A model generated the notes under the pieces. The model ran no database searches. It saw nothing but the letters and a program-made list of their open reading frames with translations, and had not been told where the DNA came from. The position numbers were made by a program, and so were the translations under genes. This document shows, in pieces, positions 1,127 to 25,639 of a stretch of DNA of 64,000 nucleotides (its first letter is position 1; each line of letters starts with the position of its first letter). Source of the stretch: Aquabacterium sp. (lineage in GTDB: Bacteria; Pseudomonadota; Gammaproteobacteria; Burkholderiales; Burkholderiaceae_C); assembly GCF_016234775.1 (NCBI RefSeq), contig NZ_JACRAH010000042.1, forward strand, positions 124,001 through 188,000. The letters run 5' to 3'.

Positions 1127-2710
1127 GTGATGATGATCTCAAAAGGCTGCCGCTCCTTGCGCCGCAAAGAGTACCGGCTCGCGATTGATCAGTTGAGGCA
1201 ACGCCACCCTTGGCTGGCGCAGCAGATCGTGGAGCCCCCTCCAGGGCATTTGCGGGTGCTTGCGCACTTCTTGGCTCAATGCGAGTTGTTGATGGGTGAA
1301 ACGGGACATCAGAACCCGTTGATGCTGTGTGTGACCACGGTACGCGACAAGATGCTTCTGCGATGCGAGTTGACCAATGCGAGCATGCAGCGTGAGCGAG
1401 CCATCCAAGACATCACTGAGCAGGCGCGCGATGCTGCTCAATTGAGCTGTCCTGTCTGCGGGGCCCCCTCCATGGTCAGCGACGTGCATGCAGCACAAGG
1501 GCAGCGATGCATGGAGCACGCAGGTGTGGGCGGGCTTTTCGCCGAAGATGTCCGGCGCCACAGGCAAATGGCGCGACAACGCGGTGCGCAGCGGACGAGT
1601 CTCACCGTTGGCCACCGTGGTGATGAAGTCATGGTGCTGCTGCCGAAGACCGAGTCCGGCGAAGACGAGCAACAAGCCGCTGTCAGTTTGTTGTTGAGCT
1701 CGGCATCACCCTCAGACGCAGCAGAACCCTGTCCGACAGAGCCCACGGTGACGCTGCTGGAGTTAGCAGGGCTCAAGCGCTTCGTTGATCGCCATCGTCC
1801 GAAAGGTGATGACAAGTTGAGGCGTGCTCAGGCGATGGTTGAACGCATCAACACGGCAGGAAGTGAGCGCCGAAAGTTGGGAGTTCTCCCTTGTGACTGG
1901 CCCGCCGTGCTGGACGAGTTCATCCAAGCCTTCCCGAACTTCTTCGAACTGGCTGATCTGCTGCGTGACCACTTTGCCTTGTCGGCATTGGGCGATCAAA
2001 GGGTGGCCTGGCCTCCCGTATTGCTGGTCGGCTCAGCAGGTATCGGCAAGACCGAAGCGGCCAGATGGTTGGCAGAAAAGCTGTCATTGCCATTCCGCGT
2101 GCTCGACATGGCCAGTGCGCAGTCAGGCTCTCCTTTGGCGGGGTCTGAATCCTTCTGGAGCAATTCAGAGCCAGGCATGTTGTTTGAGCTCTTGGCCTAT
2201 CAACCCAAAGCCAACCCGATCATGCTTCTGGATGAGCTGGACAAGGTCGATCAGCAGAAGCCATATGACCCCATGGCGCCGCTTTACACCCTGCTGGAGT
2301 CCCGCAGCGCGCGTAGTTTCATGGACCTGTCCATCCGAGACTTCACCATCGACGCCAGCCATGTCAATTGGATTGCCACGGCCAACTGTGCGGACAACAT
2401 TCCGGCGCCACTGTTGTCGAGGATGGCTGTGTTGCATGTGCAGGCGCCCACGCCCGACCAAGTCGCGCGCATTGCGCAGGCGATCTATGTCCGCATGCGC
2501 GCTGAGGCTTGTTGGGGCGAAACCTTTGCATCGAAGCTGGATGACGCAGTGCTAGACCAGCTAAGAGGGTTGCCACCTCGTCAACTGAGCCAAGCGTTGC
2601 GCAGAGCCCTCGGTCGGGCCGCTCGCGATGAGCGCGATCACATCACCATTCAGGACTTGCCTCCCGCCATGGGGCCAGCTGTACGCGGAATTGGGTTCAT
2701 CGCAACATAG
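1127..2710 (+). CDS. AAA+ ATPase with N-terminal zinc-finger-like region, Lon-like ATPase module
   Basis: This is a 527-residue protein. Three start codons in a row (GTG ATG ATG at 1127-1135) follow AGGGG. The N-terminal 100 residues are basic and helical. A CPVCG pair with later Cys/His (QRCMEH) at about residues 106-130 suggests a zinc site. The ATPase module begins near residue 300: Walker A is GSAGIGKT, Walker B is MLLDELD, a sensor-1-like region reads WIATANCAD, and an arginine-finger candidate is LLSRM. Layout resembles the ATPase half of Lon, but no Ser-Lys protease domain follows. The TAG stop lies inside the ATAGAA duplication flanking the metal unit. Removing the insertion restores the same stop, so the gene appears intact. 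Function is unknown. Position in an integrative island makes a host-defence or element-maintenance role possible. Confidence 0.75.
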   Translation: MMMISKGCRSLRRKEYRLAIDQLRQRHPWLAQQIVEPPPGHLRVLAHFLAQCELLMGETGHQNPLMLCVTTVRDKMLLRCELTNASMQRERAIQDITEQARDAAQLSCPVCGAPSMVSDVHAAQGQRCMEHAGVGGLFAEDVRRHRQMARQRGAQRTSLTVGHRGDEVMVLLPKTESGEDEQQAAVSLLLSSASPSDAAEPCPTEPTVTLLELAGLKRFVDRHRPKGDDKLRRAQAMVERINTAGSERRKLGVLPCDWPAVLDEFIQAFPNFFELADLLRDHFALSALGDQRVAWPPVLLVGSAGIGKTEAARWLAEKLSLPFRVLDMASAQSGSPLAGSESFWSNSEPGMLFELLAYQPKANPIMLLDELDKVDQQKPYDPMAPLYTLLESRSARSFMDLSIRDFTIDASHVNWIATANCADNIPAPLLSRMAVLHVQAPTPDQVARIAQAIYVRMRAEACWGETFASKLDDAVLDQLRGLPPRQLSQALRRALGRAARDERDHITIQDLPPAMGPAVRGIGFIAT

Positions 2711-2712
2711 AA
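2707..2712. repeat. Target-site duplication, left copy (ATAGAA)
   Basis: ATAGAA lies immediately outside the left terminus TGCGTATTCCG and recurs at 17254-17259, immediately outside the right terminus. IS21-family insertions typically make short duplications of 4-8 bp. An exact 6-bp match at both outer edges supports insertion of the two ends in a single event. Confidence 0.8.
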
Positions 2713-2759
2713 TGCGTATTCCGGACCAAACCAGCCACGCATTCCGATTCAAACCCGCC
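2713..2759. repeat. Left terminal tandem repeats of the IS21-type unit
   Basis: There are two abutting repeats, 2713-2736 (24 bp) and 2737-2759 (23 bp), sharing the core ATTCCG followed by CAAACC and ending in GCC. The first starts with TGCGTATTCCG, the outer terminus. Such multiple terminal repeats are IstA binding sites in known IS21-family elements. Confidence 0.7.
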
Positions 2760-2773
2760 ACTTTGGGCGGGTT
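2752..2773. terminator. Hairpin beyond istB inside the left terminus
   Basis: A perfect 8-bp stem, AACCCGCC with GGCGGGTT, encloses a 6-base loop. It lies 16 bp past the istB stop and overlaps the second terminal repeat. It could end istB transcription or keep outside transcripts from entering the element. There is no clear T-run on either strand, so terminator function is uncertain. Confidence 0.4.
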
Positions 2774-2788
2774 GTTCGCGGGAACGGA

Positions 2789-3511
2789 TTACTTCTTGCT
2801 CTTGCGATTCGCCCTCATTGAGGTTGTCCCTTTGATCACGATCCGCTCAGCCCCAGTGGCCAGGCGATCCAGAATCGCATCGGCTACGGTGGGATTGCTA
2901 CTGCCAAGATATTCGTGCCAACGGTCCACGGGCAACTGGCTGGTCACAAGGGTCGCCCGACTTCCGGTTCGTTGCTCAATTACTTCCAGTAAATCGCTGC
3001 GGCCAACCGCGCTGAGAGTGTTGATGCCAAAGTCATCTAGGATTAACAAATCAACTTTGGCCAACCTATCCAGGAGCTTTCGGAAGGTACCATCCGCATG
3101 GGAGATCGCCAATTCTTCGAGCAGCAAAGATATGCGCTGGAAGCTAACTGAGAGGCCATGGCGACACGCCTGATTGCCCAGTGCGCAGGCCAGCCAGGTC
3201 TTGCCATTGCCTGTGGCTCCAGTGACGATCAGGTTCATGCCGCGCTTGACCCTGGTGCACCAACCTAGCGAGGCCATCTCAGCGCGATCAAGTCCCCGAT
3301 CAGCACGGTACTCGATGTCCTCCATGCAGGCGGCTGACTCGCGCAACTTTGCTGCCTTGAGAAGGCGCTGCAAGCGCCGATTGTCTCTGAAGGTCAATTC
3401 TTGATCCACCACCAAGCCGAGGCGTTCCTCAAAGCTAAGATGTGACATTGAAGGGCTGGACAATTGTTCGTCAAATGCATGGGCCATGCCGAAGAGCTTC
3501 ATCCTGAGCAC
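2789..3511 (-). CDS. istB: IstB-type ATP-binding transposition helper, N-terminus eroded
   Basis: IstB is the AAA+ partner of the IS21 transposase IstA and selects and delivers target DNA. The 240 visible residues include Walker A GATGNGKT, Walker B LLILDDFGI and the LATGAERIVIKG stretch near the C-terminus, all typical of IstB. Family members usually begin about ten residues earlier with a helix leading into LRLxGMA. Here that motif (RMKLFGMA) is only four residues from the usable GTG at 3511, because IS3-type sequence joins at about 3500. The original start is therefore lost and expression is doubtful. The gene ends 76 bp inside the left terminus, the expected istB position, but no istA lies upstream. 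Confidence 0.8.
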   Translation of the reverse strand: MLRMKLFGMAHAFDEQLSSPSMSHLSFEERLGLVVDQELTFRDNRRLQRLLKAAKLRESAACMEDIEYRADRGLDRAEMASLGWCTRVKRGMNLIVTGATGNGKTWLACALGNQACRHGLSVSFQRISLLLEELAISHADGTFRKLLDRLAKVDLLILDDFGINTLSAVGRSDLLEVIEQRTGSRATLVTSQLPVDRWHEYLGSSNPTVADAILDRLATGAERIVIKGTTSMRANRKSKK

Positions 3512-4116
3512 AAGGTCTACCCCTACTTGCTGCGCGAGCTCAAGAACGAGCGTGCCAACCAGGTCTGGGCCATGGACATTACCTACATCCCGATGGCCAA
3601 GGGGGGGTGTACCTGACGGTGGTGCTGGACTGGTGCAGCCGCAAGGTGTTGAGCTGGCGCTTGTCCATATCGATGGACGTGGATTTTTGCATTGAAGCGG
3701 TTGAAGAGGCGATTGCTCGCTGGGGCAAGCCAGATATCTTCAACACCGACCAGGGCAGCCAATTCACCAGCCAAGCCTTCACCACAATGCTCAAGGACCA
3801 TGAGATCGCAATCTCGATGGACGGCAAAGGCTGCTGGAGGGACAACGTGTTCGTCGAGCGCCTGTGGCGCTCAGTCAAGTTCGAAGAGGTGTATCTCAAG
3901 GCCTACGCCAGCGTGACCGAGGCTCGACAAAACCTGGCCATCTACATGAACTTCTACAATTGCAACCGGCCGCACTCGACTCACGCGGCCAGCACGCCAG
4001 AGATGGCTTACTTTGAATCACTGCCTGCTCTCAAGCTGGCAGCGCAGTTAACCCAACCGGACTGCACTTATCTGCGCCGTTTGAGTGTTCAAACAACCGG
4101 GACCACCTCTCTGGCC
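3500..4116 (+). pseudogene. IS3-family transposase (OrfB) remnant, truncated and frameshifted
   Basis: From about 3500 the plus strand encodes the middle of an IS3 OrfB: HPEHKVYPYLLRELK, then MDITYIPMAKG. A run of seven G at 3600-3606 is one base short, so this frame stops at TGA 3614-3616. The next frame continues as VYLTVVLDWCSRKVL through the DDE core (FNTDQGSQFT, then the glutamate in VFVERLW). The 5' part, including OrfA and the HTH, is missing. The usual stop is not in frame, and the frame runs on past the element end into foreign sequence to 4362. The right inverted repeat is probably the CAAACAACCGGGACCACCTC stretch near 4090-4110. Not functional as it stands. Confidence 0.8.
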
Positions 4117-4128
4117 CCATCTCCATTC

Positions 4129-4362
4129 ATGGCCACTATTGGCTGGGTCTACGCGATCATTTTTAGCTTCGTTTGTGCGGTCTGCTTTTTAACTATCCAA
4201 TCAGATGCGTCACCCAGTTGGAAACAATGGCTTGGCTCGCTTTTGGTCGGAGTTTGCTGGCTTGGCTCTATCTGGTTCGTGAGCAAAGTACACATCACTC
4301 CTTGGCGTTTACTCAAGCAAGTTGGTGTGGTAGAGCGCGCTCAACTCGAACCCCGGGCCTAA
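4129..4362 (+). CDS. Small hypothetical membrane protein (77 residues)
   Basis: Sequence after the IS3 right end contains ATG at 4129 and stays open to TAA at 4360-4362. Two hydrophobic stretches (about residues 4-23 and 36-53) suggest two membrane helices, followed by a basic tail. It is in frame with the broken transposase, so a read-through fusion is possible but probably accidental. It could instead be the 3' remainder of a gene cut by the IS3 insertion. It converges on the EamA permease with a 4-bp gap. I see no family match. Confidence 0.3.
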   Translation: MATIGWVYAIIFSFVCAVCFLTIQSDASPSWKQWLGSLLVGVCWLGSIWFVSKVHITPWRLLKQVGVVERAQLEPRA

Positions 4363-4366
4363 CTTC

Positions 4367-5434
4367 TCAGTGACCGTGCCGATGGTGCGCATCGGGGAAA
4401 TGCGCGTGGGTGTGCCTCATGGGCAGATGGCGATGCATATGCTTGTGCGGCACGCCGGGCACCACAGGGCCCTCATGCACATGCTGATGGTGCGCATCGT
4501 GAACATGTTCATGCGCGTGTTCCATGTCCTCATGAGCATGCTCATGGGCGTGGTCCTCCGACAAGTGCAGCCAGACACCCCATCCCATCAAGGCTGCAGC
4601 CACCAGCAACTGAACCGTGACGGGCTCATGGAGGAACAGCACAGACACCAGCGCGCCGAAGAATGGGGCCACGGAGAAATAGGCCCCAGTGCGCGATGCA
4701 CCCAGATGGCGCAGCGCCAGGACGAACAGGGTCAGGCTCGCGCCATAGCTGAGAAACCCGAGCAAACCCGCTGACAAGGTGGTATCCCAACCGGGCCAGC
4801 CAGCGCCCAACGCCAGGGCCAATACCAGATTGGTGCCGCCAGCACTCAAACCTTTGGCCATGGCGATGAAACCCGCGTCGTTCAAGGCCACTTTGCGCGT
4901 CAGGTTGTTGTCCACCGCCCAGCCCAGGCATGCACCTAGCACCGCCAAAGAGGGCCACAGCGTTGACCTGGCTGCGTGCTCAACGGCTGAAGCAGGCCAA
5001 CTCAGCACCAGGGCACCGGCCACGATGGCGGCCATGCCCAAGACGATGCGTCGGTCCACGTTTTCCTTGAACACAACCCAGGCCAGCACGGCCGTTAACA
5101 CGCTCTCTGCATTGAGCAACAAGGACGATTGGGACGCAGACATACCTGCAAGCCCTGTCATCAACAACACGGGTGCTACGACGCCGCCTGTCGCTATTGC
5201 TCCAGCCAACCATCCCCAATCGCGCCAGGCCAGCGTCACCGGCGGCACACGCTGGAGGCGACGCACAAGCCACAACCCCATCCCGGAACCCAGGTACAAC
5301 AGTGCGGCCAGTAGCCAGGGACTTGTCTGGCCAAGCAGAACCTTGGCAAGCGGCGCGCTCACCCCGAATAGCAACGCGGCCACCAGCGCGGCCATGACGC
5401 CGATATGTCGATGAGAGAGCAGTTTTTGAATCAT
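4367..5434 (-). CDS. EamA/DMT-family permease with long histidine-rich C-terminal tail
   Basis: This is a 355-residue protein. Residues 12-290 carry about ten hydrophobic helices in the two-repeat pattern of EamA drug/metabolite transporters of the inner membrane, ending at GWGVWLHLSEDH. The last 65 residues are exceptional: dozens of His, with Asp, Glu and Met, in patterns such as HEHAHEDMEHAHEHVH. Such tails bind Zn, Ni, Co or Cu in other metal transporters. The gene sits in the metal unit upstream of czc on the same strand, so metal efflux or metal-complex export is likely (inference). The substrate cannot be read from sequence. The start ATG at 5432-5434 precedes the first helix by a few residues. 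Confidence 0.8.
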   Translation of the reverse strand: MIQKLLSHRHIGVMAALVAALLFGVSAPLAKVLLGQTSPWLLAALLYLGSGMGLWLVRRLQRVPPVTLAWRDWGWLAGAIATGGVVAPVLLMTGLAGMSASQSSLLLNAESVLTAVLAWVVFKENVDRRIVLGMAAIVAGALVLSWPASAVEHAARSTLWPSLAVLGACLGWAVDNNLTRKVALNDAGFIAMAKGLSAGGTNLVLALALGAGWPGWDTTLSAGLLGFLSYGASLTLFVLALRHLGASRTGAYFSVAPFFGALVSVLFLHEPVTVQLLVAAALMGWGVWLHLSEDHAHEHAHEDMEHAHEHVHDAHHQHVHEGPVVPGVPHKHMHRHLPMRHTHAHFPDAHHRHGH

Positions 5435-5522
5435 GGGTAAGCTGGTTCAAACAAGAAGGATGGCAACCAACAGCCTACATGCTCATGGCACGCCCCGCGC
5501 GCCTCGACAACAATGATTCCGA

Positions 5523-6335
5523 TCACTTCTCAAAGGACAGATACAGGAACACCCCGTTGTCTCCCCTAGATGAGCCAATTCCAATGGGAAGGCCAACGCC
5601 GTAAACAACTTGCCACCCTGATGCGTGGTTGATCGCTGCGCGAAACCCTGGAATGATGAATGCGGCTGAATCCCAGGCTTTCGAACCATCTGCAGACAAT
5701 CCCTGCGAGGCTGTCTTGACGCCTTCCAGCATGAAGTTGAAAGTTTCAGACTGCAAATGGATGATGCTGGCCCCGTAGTTGTAGCCGCGCAGATCAGCCT
5801 TGAGGCCGGATGCCTCGCGCGCCTTGGGTGTGTATGTCGCACCAGCATTCCAATGACTGATCCACTTATCAGTCAGCTCCCAACTGATCGGCAGATTGAC
5901 CTGATACCCCATGGCGCCCTGGCCTAGTCCCTTTTTGTAGTCGCCAGTCGGCAATATCAGCGACAACCTCGGGGCGACCGCCAATTTGTCATTGGCCAAC
6001 AGCTGATAACGATAGTTCAGGGCTACATCACCAATCCCAGAGTGGAATGCATCGTCGCCACCAACACGCGCCAACGGTACGGTGTAGGACAGCTGATGCT
6101 GCTGACCGTGGAAGGGCAGTTCGTTGGTAAACGTATAGAGCCATTCTTTGCTCTTATGGGAATATTGAAACGTCTGGATGTATTGAATGACGCCGTCTTC
6201 CTGGTTGTACGCCTCTTCTATCAGGAAGGAGTTGTCTTCAATCTTCTTCGACTCTTGCGCGTGTGCGCTGAAAACAGTTGAAGCAGCAAAGGATGCAAGA
6301 AGGCACCCGGAAAGAAACGACGGTCTTTGTTTCAT
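5523..6335 (-). CDS. Outer-membrane beta-barrel protein of the MetA-like transporter superfamily
   Basis: ATG at 6335 was chosen because it directly begins a signal peptide (MKQRPSFLSGCLLASFAAST, cleavage after SAHA). An in-frame upstream start at 6392 would add 19 unsuitable residues. The mature part, about 245 residues, is rich in alternating polar and aromatic strands, contains VAPRLSLILPTGDY and ends in a beta strand with aromatic FLYLSFEK, as outer-membrane barrels do. This pattern fits the broad 'transporter / MetA pathway' family often found beside RND efflux genes. It probably assists metal or solute passage across the outer membrane, but no substrate is evident. It lies downstream of czcA on the same strand. 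Confidence 0.65.
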   Translation of the reverse strand: MKQRPSFLSGCLLASFAASTVFSAHAQESKKIEDNSFLIEEAYNQEDGVIQYIQTFQYSHKSKEWLYTFTNELPFHGQQHQLSYTVPLARVGGDDAFHSGIGDVALNYRYQLLANDKLAVAPRLSLILPTGDYKKGLGQGAMGYQVNLPISWELTDKWISHWNAGATYTPKAREASGLKADLRGYNYGASIIHLQSETFNFMLEGVKTASQGLSADGSKAWDSAAFIIPGFRAAINHASGWQVVYGVGLPIGIGSSRGDNGVFLYLSFEK

Positions 6336-6459
6336 GGCAACCCCTTCGTCAGCGCAGTGATGCAATTGAAAATTCACCTGATAACCAAGCATTCATATCG
6401 ACTGAATATGGCAAGGGCTTAGCAACATGGGGTGCAATATTAGAGAAACCTTGCTCACT

Positions 6460-6828
6460 TCAAGGGCGCTCGTTGCGCAAGCCAACCTTTCTGAGCGCGA
6501 GCTTGCAGTCGCTCACATTGACAAAGACCCATTCGCCCACGCCGACTTCGACTTCGTTGGGGACCGCCACAATCCGCTTGTCCTTGAGGCTAGGGTTCCC
6601 GCCATAGCTGTAAGTGGCCACGGCAAACTTGGTATACCCGGCGTTGGCTGTCAACGCCTTCCGACAGTCTTGTTTGTCTGAGTGCACCACCAGTTGGTCC
6701 TTTCCCACCTCAAGAATCTGGGCCCGCCGCCAACCTTGAGCGTAGGTATCGGTCGGATCTTGTTTGATCGCACAAGCTGTCGCCAAGGTTGCAATGACAG
6801 TAGCCAGGGTCAATTTCATCTTCAGCAT
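6460..6828 (-). CDS. Small lipoprotein downstream of czcA
   Basis: This is a 122-residue protein. AAGGAG lies 7 bases before ATG 6826-6828. The N-terminus MLKMKLTLATVIATLATACA is a lipoprotein signal with the lipidated Cys at about residue 19. The mature part holds two further cysteines (QDCRKAL and SDCKLAL) that could pair, with short beta-rich segments between. The gene starts 25 bp after czcA and shares its strand, so it probably belongs to the czc transcript. I do not recognise a named family. A periplasmic accessory role in metal efflux is a guess from context. Confidence 0.6.
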   Translation of the reverse strand: MLKMKLTLATVIATLATACAIKQDPTDTYAQGWRRAQILEVGKDQLVVHSDKQDCRKALTANAGYTKFAVATYSYGGNPSLKDKRIVAVPNEVEVGVGEWVFVNVSDCKLALRKVGLRNERP

Positions 6829-6853
6829 GATTTGCTCCTTCAGGTTGAGAAAG

Positions 6854-11597
<4,744 letters not shown>

Positions 11598-11601
11598 GGT
11601 C

Positions 11602-12843
11602 TCAGTCTTTCGTCGGGGTGGGCTCGCCCAGCAGCTCCTGCAAGCGGGCATCGGCTTGATAGGCCTGGGCGGCGGCGCTCAGCGCCTGTGTTTCTGCCTC
11701 GAAGAGGGTGCGTTGGGCATCGAGCACGTCGAGGAAGCCGAATTTGCCCAGCTCGTAGCCTTTGGTGCTGGCAGCAAAGGCTTGGCGCGCGGCGGGCAAG
11801 ACCTTTTCGCGCAGGGTCTGGGCCTGCGCCAGCGCAGAGCTCAGTTGCGACAGCGCCTGCACGGCCTGCGCTTGGACACTGGCGCGCAAGGCATCGAGTT
11901 CGGCCCGGGCCTTGTCTTCGCGGCGGCTGGCTTCCAAGATGGCGCCCTGGTTGCGGTCGAACAGTGGTAGCACCAGGCTCACACCCACGATGGGTTGATC
12001 ACGGCCCAACTGCTGGTCGCGCTTGGCACCCAGCGACACCGTCAGATCCGGTGTGCGGCGCGAGCGCTCCAGATCGCTCAGGGCTTGTCGGCGAGAGATT
12101 TCCTGTTGAGCCCGAGCGATGGCCGGTGACGCCGCCAGGCGCTCAGACAAGGGCTCCCACAGTTCAGCGGAAGGCAGCCGTCCAATGTCTGCTTCAACGC
12201 GTTCGAACTGGACGGTTGGATCGCCCAAAGCTTGACGCAGTTGGGCCACCGCAGCACGCCACTCAGCTTGGGCAGCGGTGCTCGCCGACAGCGCCTGCGC
12301 CTCAGCCACCTGTGCCTTGAGCTCTTCGACGGGAGACACCTTGCCCGCCAGCACCCGCTTGGAAGCCGCCTCACGCGCCTGAGAAGACAAGCGCGCCAGT
12401 TCACTGGACAGCCTCATGCGTTCTTGCGCTATAGCCACGCCATGAAACGCCGCCATCACCTGCGACCTGACCTGGGCACGCCGCGCGGCCACATCCAGTT
12501 CAGCCTGGCCTTGGGCGGCCTGTGCTGCGCTGATGCGCGCCGAGCGTTTGCCGCCCAGTTCGATGGGCTGATTCAACTGGATGGTGGTGGTGCGCGTGGC
12601 TTGGCGGGTGTCTTCCACCAATGTGGACAACTCGGGGTTTTGCCAAGCACCAGCTTGTTGCGTGGCACCTTCACTGGCATCGCGCTCCAGCATAGAGGCG
12701 CGCAAATCTGGGTGGTGTGCAAGCGCCGTGGCCAGCGCCGCATCCAGGCTGAGGCTTTGCCCCCAGGCTGCTTGAAACATGAAAGGGATACACAGGGCTG
12801 CAAAAGCCATGCGTGACGCCCAGGAAACATCAAACCGTCGCAT
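11602..12843 (-). CDS. czcC: CzcC-type outer-membrane efflux channel (TolC family)
   Basis: This 413-residue protein has a signal peptide (MAFAALCIPFMFQAAWG, residues 12-28). It then shows the duplicated TolC pattern: two long coiled-coil segments separated by strand regions, the motif PIELGGKRSARI near residue 95 and the late KGYELGKFGFLDVLDAQRTL repeat typical of the family. It forms the outer-membrane exit duct for CzcBA. It is the first gene of the czcCBA transcript after czcI. Upstream lies a 163-bp gap that may hold a promoter or an attenuator, though I see no clear element there. Confidence 0.93.
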   Translation of the reverse strand: MRRFDVSWASRMAFAALCIPFMFQAAWGQSLSLDAALATALAHHPDLRASMLERDASEGATQQAGAWQNPELSTLVEDTRQATRTTTIQLNQPIELGGKRSARISAAQAAQGQAELDVAARRAQVRSQVMAAFHGVAIAQERMRLSSELARLSSQAREAASKRVLAGKVSPVEELKAQVAEAQALSASTAAQAEWRAAVAQLRQALGDPTVQFERVEADIGRLPSAELWEPLSERLAASPAIARAQQEISRRQALSDLERSRRTPDLTVSLGAKRDQQLGRDQPIVGVSLVLPLFDRNQGAILEASRREDKARAELDALRASVQAQAVQALSQLSSALAQAQTLREKVLPAARQAFAASTKGYELGKFGFLDVLDAQRTLFEAETQALSAAAQAYQADARLQELLGEPTPTKD

Positions 12844-13006
12844 CGAATTCTCCGCAAATCAGCAGGGGACATTCGGCGAACAGGTCAAGGGCTCAGCTTG
12901 AGCGCCTTGATCGCACAGCGCATGTGAGAGGAAGGTGGTGGCCCACCAGCCTCACGTGGCCAGGATCACATCAGGAGGATGTGTGCAGTAAACCCGTCTC
13001 GCCGAT

Positions 13007-13372
13007 TCAGCGCGAGACAGTCCAATTCGGGCGTTCGATGCGGGTTGCATCGAACGAGGCGTAACTCGCCAGTGGCGAGGCCACACCGTCCGCCTCAGGC
13101 AATGGCCCAAGCAGCGGCACAGCGGCAGACGGCAGGGAAACACCGGAGCAGCAATGGTGATCGTGATCGAGCATTGCCGACGCCTTGCCGGTTTCCTTGT
13201 CGCCACCATCATGATGAACGCCATCCGCATCAGAGTGATGGTGATGCACATGGTGGCCAAAATGATGTGATTGGCTCGGCGCACTTTCGTGCAGGCAGTA
13301 CGGTTCCATGGCAGCCCAAACGGCTTGGAACGGCAGCAATACCAGCAGGAAAATGGCAATCAATCGACGCAT
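13007..13372 (-). CDS. czcI: CzcI-like periplasmic metal-resistance protein
   Basis: ATG 13372 opens a signal peptide (MRRLIAIFLLVLLPFQAVWA). A start eight codons earlier would spoil it. The 121-residue product has PYCLHES and then a His/Asp-rich segment (SHHFGHHVHHHHSDADGVHH and DHDHHCCSG), matching the small CzcI proteins encoded ahead of czcCBA in Cupriavidus-type metal islands, where they influence regulation of the operon. It is probably periplasmic and binds Zn or Co. It sits between the P-type ATPase (42 bp) and czcC (163 bp) on the same strand. Confidence 0.85.
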   Translation of the reverse strand: MRRLIAIFLLVLLPFQAVWAAMEPYCLHESAPSQSHHFGHHVHHHHSDADGVHHDGGDKETGKASAMLDHDHHCCSGVSLPSAAVPLLGPLPEADGVASPLASYASFDATRIERPNWTVSR

Positions 13373-13414
13373 GGCGACCAGTATATCGGCAGGCAAATCA
13401 AAATCTGAGCCCGA

Positions 13415-15697
13415 TCAGCGTGACGAATTGACGCGCAGCAGCCGCAAGCCATTGCCAACGACCAGCAAGCTGGCGCCCACGTCTGCGAACACGGCCATCC
13501 ACATCGTGCCCAGGCCCGTCAGCGTCAGCACAAGGAACACCGCCTTGATGCCCAGGGCCAGCACGATGTTCTGAACCAGCAGCGCATGGGTGCGACGCGA
13601 CAGGCGCACAAAGCGCGGCAACTTGCGCAAATCGTCATCCATCAAGGCCACATCGGCCGTCTCGATGGCAGTGCCCGTGCCCGCCGCGCCCATGGCAAAG
13701 CCAATGTCGGCGCGGGCCAGCGCGGGCGCGTCATTGATGCCATCGCCCACCATGCCCACTGCACCACCTTGCTTGATCTTGCCCTCAATCGCCCTGAGTT
13801 TGTCCTCGGGCAGCATGTCGCCTTGGGCTTCGTCGATGCCCACTTGCGCCGCAATGGCGCGGGCCGTGTGGGCGTTGTCACCCGTGAGCATGACCGTCTT
13901 GATACCCAGTTCGTGAAGTTCCGCGATGGCCTGGCGGCTGCTGTCCTTGACCGTGTCGGCCACGGCAAACAGGCCCTGAACGCTTTCTTCGTCGGTCAGC
14001 AAGATGACCGTCTTGCCTTGTTCTTCCAAGGCGGTCAAACGTGCTTCCAATGCCTCAGAGCAGCGGCCCTGCTCATGGATCAGGCGGTGATTGCCCAAGA
14101 GGTAGGCCTTGCCACCGATGAGTCCCTTGGACCCACGCCCAGGTAGCGCCTCGAACGCATCCACGTTGTGCAGGGCGATGCCATCTTGTTGATCCGCAGC
14201 GGCCAAGGCGCGTGACACCGGGTGGTCGGAGCGGCTGGCCAGACTGGCCGCCAAGCTTCGAACATCTGCCTCACTATGGCCGTTCAATACGACGAAGTCT
14301 GTCTGCACAGGCTTGCCATGCGTGATCGTGCCGGTCTTGTCCAGGGCCAACCAAGCCAGCTTGCGGCCCTCCTCCAGGTAGGCCCCGCCCTTGATCAAGA
14401 TGCCTTGGCGCGCGGCTGCGGCCAGGCCACTCACGATGGTCACGGGGGTTGAGATCACCAGTGCGCAGGGGCAAGCGATGACCAGCAGAACGAGGGCCTT
14501 GTATACCCAGTCGAACCACACGCCTCCCATCAACAAAGGCGGCAGGATGGCCACGGCCAGTGCGATGGCAAAAACGACGGGCGTGTAGACGCGTGCGAAT
14601 TGATCGACGAAGCGCTGCGTCGGCGCCTTGGCACCTTGCGCCTCTTCCACGGCATGAATGATGCGCGCCAAGGTACTGTCGCCCGCCGCCGCCGTCACGA
14701 CGTATTCGAAAGAGCCCGACTCGTTGATGGTCCCGGCAAAGACCGCATCGCCCTGGGCCTTGTCCACGGGCAGGCTCTCACCCGTGATGGGTGCCTGGTT
14801 GACCGTCGAGCGCCCGCTGGCGATGGTGCCATCCAGCGCGATGCGCTCACCTGGTTTGACGCGCACACGCGCCCCCACGGCAACCGACTTGGCAGCGATC
14901 TCTTGCCAACTGCCGTCAGCTTGCAGGACGGTGGCGCGCTCAGGCGTCAATTGCATCAACCCCTGAATGGCGTTGCGAGCACGATCCAGTGACTTGGCCT
15001 CGATCAACTCCGCCACCGTGAACAGCACCATCACCATGGCCGCCTCGGGCCACTGGCCCAGCACCAGCGCACCCGTCACGGCAATGCTCATCAAGGCATT
15101 GATGTTGAGGTTGCCGTTTCGGATGGCCACCCAGCCCTTTTTGTAGGTCGTGATGCCGCAGGCCAGCACGGCAGTGACCGCTAGCACGGCGGCCAGCCAT
15201 GTCGGCAAACCCAGCCAGTGCACGGCCTCAGCAGCGATGGCGGCCGCACCGGCCAGGGCGAGCGGCCACCAGGGCTTGGCAGGTTCAGGCGCGAGGGCAG
15301 CGTCGGATGAAGTGCCTGTGGCGATTTCTGGCGTGAAGCCCAGAGATCGGACCGCATCGAGGATGGGTTCAATGGCTTGAGGCTCGTGTGACACGGTCAA
15401 CACACGCTGCATCAGGTTGAATTCCATGCCCAACACTCCGGCCATGCCGCCCAACCTCTTGCGCAACAAAGCTTCTTCCGTCGGGCAGTCCATCTGCATG
15501 ATGCGGATGGGAGTTTGTGTACTTGCCCCCATGGCCACGGGCTCGCCCAAAGCCACAGGAACAGGCTTCACATCATGGCTGCAGCAAGTCGTCTCGCATG
15601 ACGCAACAGGTGGCATGGCTGCCGGGGATGTCGCGCTGCAAGGCTCGTCGCCATGGGCATGGTCGTCGTGCGAATGGTGTTCGTGATGGCTGGACAT
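13415..15697 (-). CDS. cadA: Zn/Cd/Pb-exporting P1B-type ATPase (CadA/ZntA type)
   Basis: This ATPase pumps soft divalent cations out of the cytoplasm. The His/Cys-rich leader (SHHEHHSHDDHAHGDEPC) is followed by one heavy-metal-associated domain with MDCPTEE at about 69-75. The transport CPC motif is at 409-411 (VIACPCALV). It also has ITGES, phosphorylation DKTGT at 453-457, the SDHPVSRA loop and GDGINDAPA. ATG 15697 is preferred over ATG 15724, because the MerR-type promoter has its -10 box at 15723-15728, overlapping the outer ATG; the transcript should start near 15716. The product is 760 residues. It is divergent from cadR and upstream of czcI on the same strand. Confidence 0.92.
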   Translation of the reverse strand: MSSHHEHHSHDDHAHGDEPCSATSPAAMPPVASCETTCCSHDVKPVPVALGEPVAMGASTQTPIRIMQMDCPTEEALLRKRLGGMAGVLGMEFNLMQRVLTVSHEPQAIEPILDAVRSLGFTPEIATGTSSDAALAPEPAKPWWPLALAGAAAIAAEAVHWLGLPTWLAAVLAVTAVLACGITTYKKGWVAIRNGNLNINALMSIAVTGALVLGQWPEAAMVMVLFTVAELIEAKSLDRARNAIQGLMQLTPERATVLQADGSWQEIAAKSVAVGARVRVKPGERIALDGTIASGRSTVNQAPITGESLPVDKAQGDAVFAGTINESGSFEYVVTAAAGDSTLARIIHAVEEAQGAKAPTQRFVDQFARVYTPVVFAIALAVAILPPLLMGGVWFDWVYKALVLLVIACPCALVISTPVTIVSGLAAAARQGILIKGGAYLEEGRKLAWLALDKTGTITHGKPVQTDFVVLNGHSEADVRSLAASLASRSDHPVSRALAAADQQDGIALHNVDAFEALPGRGSKGLIGGKAYLLGNHRLIHEQGRCSEALEARLTALEEQGKTVILLTDEESVQGLFAVADTVKDSSRQAIAELHELGIKTVMLTGDNAHTARAIAAQVGIDEAQGDMLPEDKLRAIEGKIKQGGAVGMVGDGINDAPALARADIGFAMGAAGTGTAIETADVALMDDDLRKLPRFVRLSRRTHALLVQNIVLALGIKAVFLVLTLTGLGTMWMAVFADVGASLLVVGNGLRLLRVNSSR

Positions 15698-15722
15698 GGG
15701 GATTTGAGTAACCGTTTGGCCC

Positions 15723-15753
15723 ATTACACAACCTGAAGCTACTATAGAGTCAA
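15723..15753 (-). promoter_or_regulatory. MerR-type promoter/operator of the P-type ATPase gene
   Basis: On the minus strand, -35 TTGACT (15748-15753) and -10 TGTAAT (15723-15728) are separated by 19 bp, the overlong spacer used by MerR-family activators. The spacer contains the imperfect dyad CTATAG...CTTCAGG expected for a CadR/PbrR/ZntR protein, which would twist the DNA on metal binding. CadR is encoded divergently, 18 bp away. Confidence 0.8.
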
Positions 15754-15771
15754 GGGGTTTCTGGAGTTTTC

Positions 15772-16203
15772 ATGAAAATCGGTGAATTGGCCCAGGTGGC
15801 GCAGTGCACGGTCGAGACCATCCGCTATTACGAAAAGGAAGGCCTGCTGCCTGCGCCTGGCCGCACGGCAGGCAACTTCCGCGTGTACGGGCCCGAGCAC
15901 GTCGAGCGGTTGCGCTTCATCCGCAACTGCCGTGCGCTGGACATGAGCCACGATGAAATCCACACCTTGCTGGGTCTGGCAGACAAGGCGGAGCAAGGTT
16001 GCGGCGCGGTGAACGAGGTTTTCGATCAGCACATCGCCCACGTCGATGAGCGCATACGGGAGCTCACCCACCTCAAGCAGCAATTGGCCACCTTGCGCCA
16101 GCGATGCCAAAGCGTGCAAGCCGTGCAGTCGTGCGGCATCTTGCAGGGTCTGGCGGCCATGGAGGCTGAACCCAAATCAGAGCGACACACCCATCTGGGC
16201 TGA
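15772..16203 (+). CDS. cadR: CadR/PbrR-type MerR-family metal-responsive regulator
   Basis: This is a 143-residue protein. The N-terminal winged helix (MKIGELAQVAQCTVETIRYY) is the MerR DNA-binding domain, followed by the dimerisation coiled coil. Candidate metal ligands are Cys in EQGCGAV and the pair in RCQSVQAVQSCG, and a short His tail (RHTHLG). This pattern resembles Cd/Pb-responsive CadR or PbrR more than MerR itself. It probably represses the promoter at 15723-15753 without metal and activates it with Cd, Pb or Zn. A methyltransferase gene follows after 19 bp. Confidence 0.88.
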   Translation: MKIGELAQVAQCTVETIRYYEKEGLLPAPGRTAGNFRVYGPEHVERLRFIRNCRALDMSHDEIHTLLGLADKAEQGCGAVNEVFDQHIAHVDERIRELTHLKQQLATLRQRCQSVQAVQSCGILQGLAAMEAEPKSERHTHLG

Positions 16204-16222
16204 ACAGATCAAGAGGCACACC

Positions 16223-16843
16223 ATGCAAAACAAGGATCACTGGGAAAAGGTTTACACCACCAAGGCGCCGGACAGCGTGAGCTGGTTTCAAGCGCATGCC
16301 GACATGTCCATGCGCTTGATTCGAGCAAGCGGCCTCGGTCGTGATGCGGCCATCGTCGATATTGGCGGTGGGGCCTCCACGCTGGTCGATGACCTGCTGG
16401 GCGACGGCTATACCAACGTGACCGTGCTGGACCTGTCTGCCGCCGCCTTGGCAGAAAGTCAGCACCGTCTGGGTGCCCGAGCGGCTTGCGTCAAATGGGT
16501 GGAGGCGGACATCACCCGCGCCACCTTCGATCCCCACAGCATCGACCTCTGGCATGACCGCGCCGTGTTCCACTTCCTGACCGCGCAGGAGGACCGTCAG
16601 ACCTACGTCAAACAGGTCTTGCAGGCGCTCAAGCCAGGAGGCCACGTCATCATGGCGACCTTCGGCAGCCATGGCCCCACGCAGTGCAGTGGCCTGCCCG
16701 TCATGCGCTACGCACCGGATGAGCTGCACGCCGAATTTGGGGAGGCGTTCACCATGCTAAGCCACGAAGAGCAAATACACCACACGCCCTTCGGGAGCGA
16801 TCAGCAGTTCATCTACTGCATGTGCCGAAAACAAATGGCATGA
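16223..16843 (+). CDS. Class I SAM-dependent methyltransferase beside cadR
   Basis: ATG 16223 (MQNKDHWEKVYTTKAPDSVS) matches the usual start of this small family. A longer frame overlapping cadR is not credible. The 206 residues include SAM-binding motif I VDIGGGAST, the acidic residue ending strand 2 (VLDLS), EADI, and PGGHVIMATF after the fourth strand. Cysteines occur at QCSGL and near the end (YCMCRK). It is probably cotranscribed with cadR, 19 bp upstream. Proteins of this type are common in metal islands and may methylate a metalloid or a small thiol, but the substrate is not visible here. It is the last gene before the right terminus of the unit. Confidence 0.75.
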   Translation: MQNKDHWEKVYTTKAPDSVSWFQAHADMSMRLIRASGLGRDAAIVDIGGGASTLVDDLLGDGYTNVTVLDLSAAALAESQHRLGARAACVKWVEADITRATFDPHSIDLWHDRAVFHFLTAQEDRQTYVKQVLQALKPGGHVIMATFGSHGPTQCSGLPVMRYAPDELHAEFGEAFTMLSHEEQIHHTPFGSDQQFIYCMCRKQMA

Positions 16844-17184
16844 ACGCTTTGCATCGTGCATTTTCTCGACATCCACCACCTGCAGCTTTACCAATCAAGA
16901 GTGCTGGTGTGAGCTAATTCAGACTCTAGAGTCCATTGCGATCCCATGTGGATAGCCCGACTAGTAAGGGCTTCAAACTACGAACCATTCAATCGGCGCT
17001 ACGGTCCTTTTGCAGTGGGTTTCGAGAGCAAGATGGCCTTGATCGAATGGACAGCCCAACAAGCGGAAAGGTGTTGGTGACGCAATGTTTTTACGAACCA
17101 ACTCCGTAGCCAAATGAAACTTTCATTCGAATAGCTGGACTTGCTTTCATCGGATTCAGTGGACTTCTATGAAGCGGAAGGAGT
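16844..17184. other. Gene-free stretch inside the right end of the metal unit
   Basis: About 340 bp with no convincing gene on either strand. This is where istA would start in a normal IS21 element, on the minus strand, but I find no IstA-like sequence. A perfect inverted repeat, AATGAAA-C-TTTCATT, lies at 17113-17127. Diverged copies of the terminal repeat may extend into 17135-17184. Confidence 0.5.
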
Positions 17185-17253
17185 GGTGGTTTTGAATTGG
17201 AATGGCCGGTGGGTTTGAAATGGAACATCTGGTGCTTTTGATCGGAATACGCA
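17185..17253. repeat. Right terminal tandem repeats (three 23-bp units)
   Basis: Three abutting 23-bp units lie at 17185-17207, 17208-17230 and 17231-17253. Each begins GGTG, continues with TTTGA three bases on, and has GGAA at positions 14-18. The outermost ends CGGAATACGCA, the inverse of the left terminus at 2713. The arrangement is that of IS21-family ends. Confidence 0.75.
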
Positions 17254-17259
17254 ATAGAA
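17254..17259. repeat. Target-site duplication, right copy (ATAGAA)
   Basis: ATAGAA directly follows the right terminus CGCA and matches 2707-2712 outside the left terminus. Joining the two flanks through one copy restores a short gap between the ATPase stop and the lipoprotein gene at 17334. Confidence 0.8.
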
Positions 17260-17333: not shown

Positions 17334-18092
17334 ATGGATCTCAAAAGACTGGCCGCGCTGGCGAGCTTGATCATGGTGGGCTGCGCAACGCCTCCGCCGA
17401 AGGAGGCTGCAATGGACTGGGCAGCATTCATCGCTTCCGTGCCTGGCTCGGTGATCAGCGACGTGGATTACCAGACCTCGACGCTCAAGCGCAGTGCGCA
17501 TCGGGCCAATACGCCAGGGCTGGCACAAACCAAGGCCAGCTTTGGCTCTTGGTGCCAAACCCATGGCGGTAAGGCCTCCGATACGCCGCTGTCGCCCGGA
17601 ACTGGCGTGGCGCAATCTTTCCATGTCGCCTCTGCGGCCTGGTCGAACCAGGATCTGGTCCTGCGTGGAGATCGTTACAGCAGCACGTCGCTGTTCTGCT
17701 TCGATGGCCAGGCGCAGTTGATGGCCGTGATGTTTGTCCGAACCTATGGCGGTTATCGCAACTCGCGCTATGAGCCGGACAAACTGCCAGCTCCGGTGAT
17801 TGCTTTTTACACGCCGGACCAAGCCGCCCAATTCGCGGATTTCTACAACGCCAAGGAAAAGGAGCGCAGCGACGCCATCATCAAAGAAAGCCAGCGTCGC
17901 TCAGATCGTCAGGCCGAAGAGACTCGCCGTCTGCGCAGTGCGCCGAAGGTAGGCGACCAGACCATGGAAGGCATCGTCATAGAGCTGCGTCCACCTCTCG
18001 CGTTGATCCAGTACAGTGCGCTTCAGCGCCAGATGTTTGGCAAGCCGCAGTCAGAGTGGGTGCCGATCACGTCGTTGACTGCGCCGCGCTGA
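17334..18092 (+). CDS. Hypothetical lipoprotein with coiled-coil segment
   Basis: This is a 252-residue protein. The signal MDLKRLAALASLIMVGCA places the lipidated Cys at residue 17, so it is likely anchored to a membrane facing the periplasm. The middle holds two cysteines (SWCQTH and LFCFDG) and aromatic-rich strands. Residues about 168-205 are a charged helix rich in Glu, Arg and Lys (KEKERSDAIIKESQRRSD) suited to a coiled coil, followed by a small beta region. Before the metal unit inserted, this gene lay about 85 bp after the AAA+ ATPase on the same strand, so they may once have been cotranscribed. I do not recognise the family. Confidence 0.6.
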   Translation: MDLKRLAALASLIMVGCATPPPKEAAMDWAAFIASVPGSVISDVDYQTSTLKRSAHRANTPGLAQTKASFGSWCQTHGGKASDTPLSPGTGVAQSFHVASAAWSNQDLVLRGDRYSSTSLFCFDGQAQLMAVMFVRTYGGYRNSRYEPDKLPAPVIAFYTPDQAAQFADFYNAKEKERSDAIIKESQRRSDRQAEETRRLRSAPKVGDQTMEGIVIELRPPLALIQYSALQRQMFGKPQSEWVPITSLTAPR

Positions 18093-19771: not shown

Positions 19772-19799
19772 GTGTACATATTCGGAAGACTCGCTGTCC

Positions 19800-20109: not shown

Positions 20110-21216
20110 TCAACCTAGTTTTTTTGCCAAATCTTCTGCTCTTGGGTGGTAGTACCTCTTCAGCATCCGCAGGTCCTTGTGCCCTGTCACGGCTGACAAC
20201 TCCAGCATGTTCGAGAGCTTGTCGGCCAGCCTTGACGCTGCCTCGTGGCGGCTGTCATGGAAGTGGACATCTTCCAAAAATCCTGGCACGGGCCTCTTCT
20301 TTTGAGCCTTGCAGTCCGCCAGGTATTGTTCGCGCGCCCGTTCAACGGCACGGGTGAAGCCCTTGCGCAGAGCCATGGCCGTGGTGCTGAACACCGGACC
20401 CACCCGTGGGTCATCGTTGCTGCTGTGCTCGTCTTCAAGCTCATAAGGCAAAGACTTCAGGATCGCAACGGCGCGCGTGGACAACGGCACCGTACGGGCA
20501 TCGCCGTTCTTGGTGTCCGGCAAGTGTGCCGTCTGCTTGTAGAGATCGACAAACTCCCACCGCAACGCCAGCAGCTCACCTCGGCGCATCGCGGTTTCCA
20601 GGGCCAGTCGCAACAAGGGAGCCAGCCAGGGGTTACGCGTTCCCTTGGTGAATGTCCCATCTGTGCGGCGCTCCCCGCTTTCCAGGTGGCTCAGCAGATA
20701 CCGCTCCTCGTCTGGGGAAAAGCGTCGATCTCTGGCCTTGGCCTTCTCTGGGCGCTTCACGTACGGAATCGGGTTGTCCACATAGATGCCCCATTCGCGG
20801 CGAGCGTGGTTCAGCACCGTGGAGATCACGTCAATTTCACGATTGACGGTAGCGCCCGACACCACAGCCAGGCGACGGTCACGCCACGCCGCCACGGCCT
20901 TGCTGGTGATGGCGGTCATCTTCAGGCTCACCAATGCTGCATCGCGCAGGATCACGTCGATCTTCACGGCCTCGATCTCAGCCGACTTCTTGCGGGGCGT
21001 CACTTCCTGCTTGTAGCGCTGCAAAATCTTGGCGAGGGTGTTGGCTTCGGCTTCCTTGCGGTCCACGAAGCCGGTGGTTTCCATCTCGCGCTCCAGGCCT
21101 CGCATCCACTTCTCTGCATCCTCGCGGTACATGAAGGTCTTGGTCTGTTGTGGAAAGCCATTGCGGCGCACCCGCGCTTGCCACTGCAACTCGCCTCTTT
21201 TTTTGATGTTGCCCAA
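20110..21216 (-). CDS. Tyrosine recombinase (integrase) of island 1
   Basis: The enzyme would insert and excise island 1 at tRNA-Pro. TTG 21216 is preferred as start: AGGAG lies 8 bases upstream, and the product then begins with GNIKKRGELQW, the usual opening of this integrase group. Starting at 21492 would translate the tRNA fragment and att region (it reads GVRGFEPPASTSRTQPD), which is an artefact. The 368-residue product has an N-terminal arm-binding domain, a core-binding domain around residues 75-165, and catalytic motifs: Arg in TAMRRGELLALRW, HDSRHEAASR, TGHKD and Tyr in KRYYHP. It reads away from the att fragment at 21313-21359 into island 1. Confidence 0.9.
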   Translation of the reverse strand: MGNIKKRGELQWQARVRRNGFPQQTKTFMYREDAEKWMRGLEREMETTGFVDRKEAEANTLAKILQRYKQEVTPRKKSAEIEAVKIDVILRDAALVSLKMTAITSKAVAAWRDRRLAVVSGATVNREIDVISTVLNHARREWGIYVDNPIPYVKRPEKAKARDRRFSPDEERYLLSHLESGERRTDGTFTKGTRNPWLAPLLRLALETAMRRGELLALRWEFVDLYKQTAHLPDTKNGDARTVPLSTRAVAILKSLPYELEDEHSSNDDPRVGPVFSTTAMALRKGFTRAVERAREQYLADCKAQKKRPVPGFLEDVHFHDSRHEAASRLADKLSNMLELSAVTGHKDLRMLKRYYHPRAEDLAKKLG

Positions 21217-21312
21217 GGTGTTGCTCCTGATTTTTGGTTGCCGCTGTCGCACCAGTGTCGCAAAAAATGAGGAAATCAACCAGTGGCTAAGCAGGCATTG
21301 AATGTCTGGTTG

Positions 21313-21359
21313 CGTTCGGGACGTAGAGGCCGGAGGTTCGAATCCTCTCACCCCGACCA
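21313..21359 (+). repeat. 3' fragment of tRNA-Pro(CGG), right end of island 1
   Basis: The segment runs from the anticodon loop (TTCGGGA) through the variable loop, T arm (GGAGG-TTCGAAT-CCTCT), acceptor strand CACCCCG, discriminator A and CCA. It matches the 3' half of bacterial tRNA-Pro with anticodon CGG. The D arm and 5' acceptor strand are absent, and the sequence left of 21313 does not pair, so this is a duplicated attachment site and not a working tRNA. The intact gene should lie to the left of the window. Confidence 0.75.
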
Positions 21360-21367
21360 GGTTTCCC
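21338..21367 (+). repeat. att direct repeat, left copy of island 2
   Basis: These 30 bp begin TCGAATCCTCTCACCCC and end GTTTCCC, covering the T loop to the CCA end of the tRNA and 8 bp beyond. They are identical to 28012-28041. The pair brackets the second integrase and the restriction-modification genes. Confidence 0.85.
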
Positions 21368-21418
21368 AGAGGCAAATGCCCAGGAGGCCCATCAATAAAG
21401 GGTTCTCTCCCTTTGACC

Positions 21419-21441
21419 TTCCCACAATCCCTCCCACAAAT
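21419..21441. repeat. Candidate integrase arm sites, left end of island 2
   Basis: TTCCCACAAT (21419-21428) and the near copy CTCCCACAAAT (21431-21441) lie just inside the left att repeat and directly before the second integrase gene. The same 10-mer appears twice near the right end (27892-27925), all on the plus strand. Confidence 0.5.
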
Positions 21442-21476
21442 AAGCCTCTCAATTGGCTGTGTGGGACAATCTGAGT

Positions 21477-25219: not shown

Positions 25220-25639
25220 GGCCTGCCTGTCGGTTGAATGTGTCAGGCTGGACTCTAGACCATTGATATCAATGTGTCAAGAAATTGAATTATGACCCTA
25301 ATCGGACATATTTCCGGGTACACACCTGTCAGGTGAATATGTGGCCTTGAGGTATACCCCAGACTGACACTAGCGGCATTAACCATGCCAGTCGGCCCCT
25401 TGGTCAGCACTGAGGAGCGTTTATAGGTGGGGAAGTGACGCTACATGGCAGGCCCGCTGTGAAAACCGATGGGGCATGGGGGGCGTTCAGGAGGCGGAAT
25501 GCTTAGGTACGTGCTCGGAAAAGTTCGCTATGGAGTTCGGGCCTGGATGCGTTAACTCGCTCCACATGGCGTGGGCCCCTTCGATAAAAAGAACTCCGTC
25601 GTGGCGAGGCTTGGTTTTCAGTTTGCTACAGTCCCAAGC
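25220..25639. other. 420-bp intergenic region before the methyltransferase
   Basis: Apart from the palindrome at 25261-25274, I see no gene and no clear controller-protein box. It must hold the divergent promoters of the recombinase and the R-M operon. Composition becomes more AT-rich towards the methyltransferase. Confidence 0.4.
25261..25274. promoter_or_regulatory. Perfect 14-bp palindrome upstream of the serine recombinase
   Basis: CATTGATATCAATG is fully self-complementary and lies 42 bp before the recombinase start. It may be an operator or a recombinase half-site pair. No second copy was noticed. Confidence 0.35.

Follow-up and report, generated by a model that had tools for sequence, protein, structure and literature searches.

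How does a block of heavy-metal resistance genes come to lie beside istB, but without istA, between one pair of IS21-type ends? The question is raised by a 64-kb stretch of Aquabacterium sp. DNA (contig NZ_JACRAH010000042.1, positions 124,001 to 188,000; hereafter the window, to which positions refer unless another locus is named). Members of the IS21 family of insertion sequences (IS) usually carry istA and istB only and are usually treated as small, cargo-free insertion sequences; the family also serves as a structural model of how a transposase works with an AAA+ helper. The element at 2713-17253 very likely belongs, in decayed form, to a group of IS21-family transposons in which cargo is the rule. 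We give an even chance to the broader proposal that this group is an undescribed class of regulated IS21-based cargo transposons, in which, in a Mu-like control module, an XRE repressor gene would be divergent from a helix-turn-helix (HTH)-istA-istB operon, the repressor and a membrane protein would be paired by way of a common QRxAxRDY motif, and istAB could be swapped with the control module kept, and which would spread metal-efflux, other efflux, RTX-secretion and Rhs blocks in Beta- and Gammaproteobacteria.

Insertion and remaining genes of the Aquabacterium element

The element is 14,541 bp long, has exact inverted ends and is flanked on each side by ATAGAA, all at the positions given in an earlier reading of this DNA made without database searches (the sequence-only reading). 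The terminal sequence TGCGTATTCCG occurs in the window twice with 0 mismatches, at 2713 (+) and at 17243-17253 (-). The 11-mer alone is not significant, a chance model allowing up to 2 mismatches giving a mean of 14 expected matches against the 8 observed, and the evidence for insertion is therefore the exact end pair, the duplication and an empty site taken jointly. The empty site is in a genome of the same genus (G031, contig 4), where the uninterrupted locus reads CATAGAAGGCTCC, with a single ATAGAA, and has flanks identical to those of the window at 96.8% (left) and 93.1% (right). The right-flank sequence on that contig directly adjoins an ATPase gene with a product 98% identical to the AAA ATPase of the window, 2 bases past the stop codon of which the element starts. 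This junction shows that something with these ends entered between 2712 and 17254 and duplicated 6 bp. For the sequence-only reading, an uninterrupted locus revealing one end to be unrelated to insertion would have counted as a refutation; the G031 locus instead speaks in its favour. The TG...CA inverted ends with multiple internal repeats and a target duplication within the 4-8-bp range of the family are both IS21 features. The right and left ends of the window element are, respectively, 85% identical over 48 bp and 82% identical over 83 bp to the right end of a Xylophilus element; folding of the left-end DNA gave nothing (z 0.40). Elsewhere in the genus, 76 bp of contig 184 in genome G004 (2915-2990, locus L164) are 82% identical to the window left end and are perhaps the end of another element.

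Inside the ends, the istB product scores 210.5 bits with IstB_IS21 and 218 bits with NCBIfam IstB NF038214 (cut-off 200). The sequence-only reading placed istB here correctly; the gene is, however, missing its 5′ end, where it adjoins a truncated IS3-type orfB, and the match begins at residue 13 of the family query. As PMC11208146 reports that the N-terminal region of the IS21 IstB dimerises the protein, the window istB may be impaired. The IS3 fragment occupies the place where, by the gene order of relatives, istA, the HTH and XRE genes and the start of the membrane-protein gene are expected, and its orfB runs on, in the same frame, into the tail of a small membrane protein. The IS3 fragment has no second copy in the source genome, and the edges given for it are approximate. 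The tail, at about 4063-4362 and absent from the sequence-only reading, is a C-terminal remnant of the group membrane protein: a profile of 27 family membrane proteins matched a single segment (3508-4359, +, E 1.3e-19) out of the 1,362 obtained from the window in six frames, and the pairwise identity is 36% over 86 aa. Its position between istB and the cargo and its orientation are those of the gene in relatives, and the window element keeps, in family order, istB and this remnant of the five-gene core described below.

Among the same six-frame segments, the istA and HTH profiles found no match and the XRE profile picked up only a different HTH gene, weakly (E 0.0005), at 19773 beyond the element. 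The source genome (94.7% complete, 68 contigs) yielded a single full IstB and no IS21 transposase. Since IstA was found neither in the window nor in its source genome, the window element is filed as an IS21-family derivative and not as a complete member. The description of the content as istB plus a full metal set lacking istA thus stands, except for the gene named czcI, which has only a sub-threshold DUF2946 match. The cargo reading frames are open, so that the block probably still provides Cd/Zn/Pb/Co-type efflux.

Relatives with a five-gene core

A search with IstB of 299 genomes of the family gave two nearest matches (66% and 60%), both with unexpected genes upstream of istA; one of these has a tail that corresponds to the odd one in the window. 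A plasmid search with the XRE protein of one relative gave 5 records, and an alignment of five XRE proteins found 85 relatives in 84,980 species genomes. The loci analysed were the first 34 of the best 80 of these 85, plus 5 others; two contigs were met twice and each counted once, leaving 37 distinct loci. By similarity, 25 of the 37 have istB, istA, HTH, XRE and membrane-protein genes, a few of which are broken or partly matched (istA and the membrane gene in L078, the XRE and membrane genes in L089). Several of the other 12 stop at contig edges, and L065, with a distant istAB only, was not counted. As a control, 20 ordinary IS21 loci with IstB 46-55% identical to the queries were inspected, and none has the HTH, XRE or membrane protein within the stretch fetched, which extends at least 1 kb upstream of istA in 16 of them. 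The IstA of intact relatives belongs to the IS21 family (NF033546, 255 bits for the E. coli element, cut-off 160) and also matches the solved IS5376 IstA. The cargo-bearing group is rare; at E 1e-20 the XRE protein was present in 4 of 399 genomes of the window's order. An Aromatoleum plasmid (L059, 14983-15585) has an XRE homologue with neither the group HTH nor the membrane gene beside it, and the IS21 element ~3 kb away is of another type.

Ends were surveyed in 30 sequences (27 relatives, the E. coli and Methylomonas DH-1 loci and the window) by end-pattern searches, an earlier automatic end search having given many chance pairs. Both ends and a 4-8-bp duplication were located in 8 of the 30; in 21 others at least one end was unrecognised or lay beyond the fetched stretch. 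All seven complete elements other than that of the window (Table 1) have one istB and one istA beside the right end and cargo toward the left end, and six have all five core genes, the istA match in Methylomonas fluvii extending over residues 232-505 only. The window shows this arrangement too, its cargo lying within one pair of ends and on the left-end side of the core. The two Polynucleobacter copies differ by 0 mismatches and 1 gap and lie at different sites in different surroundings. In the E. coli plasmid pECO-dc1b (NZ_CP026207.1), the element lies in IncC backbone. A plasmid search with this stretch matched 1,027 records, one of which had most of it, and in 26 of 30 plasmid rows among the matches listed the backbone is present on both sides with nothing between; the empty backbone site was confirmed base by base in one record. 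The Ni/Co element itself is in 2 of 5,426 E. coli genomes, in one of which it is cut by the record end. Like the window element, it has ends, a 6-bp duplication and metal cargo in the same slot, here with the full five-gene core, but its IstB is of another lineage and its end sequence differs. In the feature table it is annotated as separate genes only.

The cargo itself is varied. Zoogloea members have CzcA, CzcC, DUF2946, ZntA and CadR in the order and orientation of the window, and one Zoogloea row also shows czcB, for which the overlap filter drops most hits. Their CzcC-type genes are 48-49% identical to that of the window. For the large Zoogloea elements no left end was located; two of them share ~28-30 kb of DNA. 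The Gallionellaceae element carries czcCBA, FTR1, Fur, ZntA, EamA and a methyltransferase; a 65% relative of the window methyltransferase adjoins its left end. By annotation, the E. coli cargo includes a metal-sensing repressor, RcnA, HupE, TraX and others. The Comamonadaceae element has an outer-membrane factor, an HlyD-type adaptor and ABC and MacB proteins, and M. fluvii has an RTX protein and type I secretion genes, as, from annotation, does Methylomonas DH-1. A 2,418-aa Rhs-repeat protein is encoded in the betaproteobacterium G377, FAD enzyme, TauE and FRG-domain proteins in Polynucleobacter, and LysE, molybdopterin oxidoreductase and FGE-type proteins in Rhodoferax, of which only the left end was located.

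The XRE and membrane proteins appear to be connected. The motif [QNSHF][RK]x[AS]xRD[YFH] recurs in both: 20 of 25 distinct XRE proteins have it within their final 45 residues (shuffle mean 0.005) and 21 of 27 distinct membrane-protein frames within their initial 90 residues (shuffle mean 0.01), and with XRE queries tblastn found the XRE tail in the head of the membrane gene in 4 of 9 elements (Polynucleobacter twice, G377 and DH-1). The common QRxAxRDY motif (for example L058, 14995-16249, and relatives) hints that the two proteins pair, and because it is shared we propose that the membrane protein acts with XRE. A likeness to amyloid-signalling motif pairs is offered as an idea only. The HTH protein matches Pfam HTH_35 (3.3e-10) and phrog_769 (1.5e-12); a PDB match to phage Mu Ner is at E=1, and kinship is not claimed.

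The IstB tree has 41 rows, after repeats were dropped from the 47 gathered. The window IstB falls in a clade of 12 rows, all core-bearing, with support 100/99, and the core label requires 3 changes on the tree compared with a mean of 14 in shuffles. Two Zoogloea loci (L072, L073) are closely related to six others (L066-L070, L077) in control module and cargo and clearly different in istA and istB, which are 40-49% identical to the queries versus 65-73% in the six. Such like modules with unlike istAB suggest that the istAB pair is exchangeable between elements.

Origin of the cargo and relation to known systems

With relatives that have istA and istB carrying cargo in the same slot and moving as units, the carriage of cargo appears characteristic of this IS21 group, with istA lost from the window element by decay, and, judging from those relatives, cargo and ends most likely entered this site together. 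The sequence-only view of a cargo-bearing IS21-type element is upheld by the ends, the duplication, the empty site and the relatives. Several observations weigh against reading the window element as a decayed member of such a group. The 20 core-bearing rows do not form one clade on the IstB tree, occupying two further places beyond the 12-row clade, and on the Citrobacter plasmid pPSV (L061, 12001-14645) an istAB with 84% DNA identity to the E. coli element has no HTH, XRE or membrane genes found with it and no left end found. No second copy of the window element was found, the closest IstB being 66% identical in the 299 family genomes and 67% in plasmids; in a whole-element megablast against plasmids no record covers 80%, the listed matches being cargo-gene and IS3-type stretches. 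Four of the 20 control loci either yielded no istA or have an upstream stretch of under 1 kb. In the Gallionellaceae element no membrane gene was recognised and the choice of right end relied in part on the duplication, and Methylomonas DH-1 has both ends and no duplication. Finally, the CATG duplication of the second Polynucleobacter species is weaker than that of the first: it was pieced together from two contigs, each beginning within an element end, on the assumption that they flank a single insertion, and a match as short as 4 bp may have arisen by chance.

The sequence-only reading had offered two other histories, neither of which is now the best, as relatives with istAB carry cargo in the same slot. 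In one, a simple two-gene IS21 element would have inserted at ATAGAA and metal genes been captured later, replacing istA. The IS3 fragment at the edge of istB does show that secondary events occurred, no intact twin was found and the empty site alone gives no date for the cargo, but later capture is very unlikely given that a remnant of the group membrane gene lies between istB and cargo in family order, that istAB-bearing relatives already hold cargo in the same place and that Zoogloea relatives have the same metal block in the same order. The other, in which istA was lost first and the element then moved here in trans through another IS21 transposase, would explain intact ends without istA and is unlikely rather than implausible: the source genome has one full IstB and no IS21 transposase was found in it, and the event could have taken place elsewhere or earlier. 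A composite transposon, with two IS21 copies flanking the cargo and both decayed inside, could also leave an end with istB on one side and an end alone on the other, as two trimmed copies would. Its likelihood is minimal: each of the seven other complete elements has just one istAB set, with the right end on one side of it and the cargo on the other, and the window has one istB only and no trace of a second istAB, not the two flanking IS copies that define a composite. Capture and the composite structure are thus set aside on the membrane-gene remnant and the single-istAB architecture of the relatives.

As a decayed member of the group, the window element would derive from an intact form with the order left end, cargo, membrane protein, XRE repressor (divergent), small HTH_35 protein, istA, istB and right end. 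In it, IstA (a DDE transposase) and IstB (an AAA+ helper that acts on target DNA) would together connect both multi-repeat ends with the target, generating a 4-8-bp duplication and moving everything between the ends. PMC10122671 and PMC11208146 describe IstA as joining ends to target and IstB as needed for this, binding and bending target DNA. From the layout, the XRE and HTH proteins would control istAB and hold transposition down, as does the divergent repressor of phage Mu, with the membrane protein presumably acting with XRE. The ends, the duplication and the empty site show that the element jumped into the gap behind the AAA-ATPase gene; before or after that jump, an IS3 element and deletions, in an order and by causes that we infer, would have removed istA, the HTH and XRE genes and the starts of the membrane gene and istB, leaving an element presumably no longer able to move itself.

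The early region of phage Mu has a repressor gene pointing away from a small HTH gene, behind which come the genes for a DDE transposase and an AAA+ helper. The group has the same layout, but with a transposase of the IS21 type. Tn7-like and Tn5053/Tn6048-type transposons also move cargo with a DDE transposase and an AAA+ helper; here these are IstA and IstB, unlike the TniABQR of Tn6048, an annotation that excluded Tn6048 as an earlier report of the group. With IS21, IS5376, IS408 and ISPpu7 the group shares IstB (in the window), IS21-family IstA (in intact relatives) and short target duplications, as well as ends of several repeats, as described for IS21 members in PMC10122671. It differs from the family in size (8.8-19.9 kb) and in having two regulators, a membrane protein and cargo, and the window element differs further in lacking istA. 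The IS21 family is already known, whereas for a cargo-carrying group, with cargo under one IS21 end pair as a standing arrangement, no description was found in the open-licence PubMed Central (PMC) literature. One paper mentions P460 genes that lie between two IS21 transposons within a Tn7-like element (PMC8649781), and according to another (PMC10293859) IS21 has not been linked to a target selector. If our reading is correct, IstA and IstB can move 9-20 kb, part of the traffic in proteobacterial metal-resistance and secretion genes has gone into annotations as genes with an IS beside them, and the pairing of repressor and membrane protein would be a control circuit open to testing. The IncC case puts the group on an E. 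coli plasmid.

Feature list and neighbouring genes

The CzcB-type adaptor of the window (Table 1) has its best match to TIGR00999 CzcB/NccB, at 242 bits, under the cut-off of 319.

Table 1. Features of the window element and its site, and the other complete elements of the group
Feature	Position or length	Strand	Remark
Interrupted host locus, left: AAA ATPase	1127..2710	+	98% relative in G031
Target-site duplication ATAGAA, left copy	2707..2712	.	single copy in G031 empty site
Right end (istB side): TGCGTATTCCG, ~2 repeat units, GC-rich inverted repeat	2713..2773	+	
istB helper ATPase, 5′ end clipped	2789..3511	-	family istB profile E 6.6e-109
Truncated IS3-type orfB, integrase core	3503..4060 (edges approximate)	+	rve, rve_3
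C-terminal remnant of group membrane protein	4063..4362 (about)	+	profile and pairwise match
EamA-type transporter with His-rich tail (cargo)	4367..5434	-	
Cargo open reading frame (ORF)	5523..6392	-	no Pfam match
Small cargo ORF, lipoprotein-like by eye	6460..6828	-	no Pfam match
CzcA/CusA heavy-metal RND pump (cargo)	6854..10015	-	TIGR00914 1720 bits, above cut-off
CzcB-type adaptor (cargo)	10005..11651	-	RND_mfp 147.8, above cut-off
CzcC-type outer-membrane factor (cargo)	11602..12843	-	named by position and similarity
DUF2946/CzcI-like ORF (cargo)	13007..13396	-	DUF2946 21.5 bits, sub-threshold (23.7)
ZntA/CadA-type P-type ATPase (cargo)	13415..15724	-	TIGR01525 591 bits, above cut-off
CadR/PbrR regulator (cargo)	15772..16203	+	TIGR02047 181.6 bits, above cut-off
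S-adenosylmethionine (SAM) methyltransferase (cargo)	16223..16843	+	Methyltransf_11
Left end (istA side): TGCGTATTCCG and run of repeat units	17113..17253	-	
Target-site duplication ATAGAA, right copy	17254..17259	.	
Interrupted host locus, right: lipoprotein-like ORF	17334..18092	+	by eye; no Pfam match
E. coli IncC element	9,358 bp		duplication GCCAGC
Comamonadaceae element	10,887 bp		duplication ACTGGG
Methylomonas fluvii element	14,846 bp		duplication CTCATGCT
Polynucleobacter element, first species	8,821 bp		duplication ATCAAGG
Polynucleobacter element, second species	8,820 bp		duplication CATG
Betaproteobacterium element	15,457 bp		duplication AAATAT
Gallionellaceae element	19,851 bp		duplication GTTAG

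Two of the relatives have further peculiarities. In Polynucleobacter 31A-FELB (L084) one contig is exactly the element, and two flanking contigs were found; the contig break may reflect a tandem or circular form, or further copies. The right end in Methylomonas DH-1 (L057, ~15739-15877) lies within a frame annotated as a group II intron maturase.

In the window itself, ARAGORN found no tRNA. Just to the right of the interrupted host locus there are two opposed tyrosine-recombinase genes (20110-23198), with overlapping 5′ ends as called, and at 25571-27792 a C5 DNA methylase gene is followed by that of a XamI-type restriction endonuclease.

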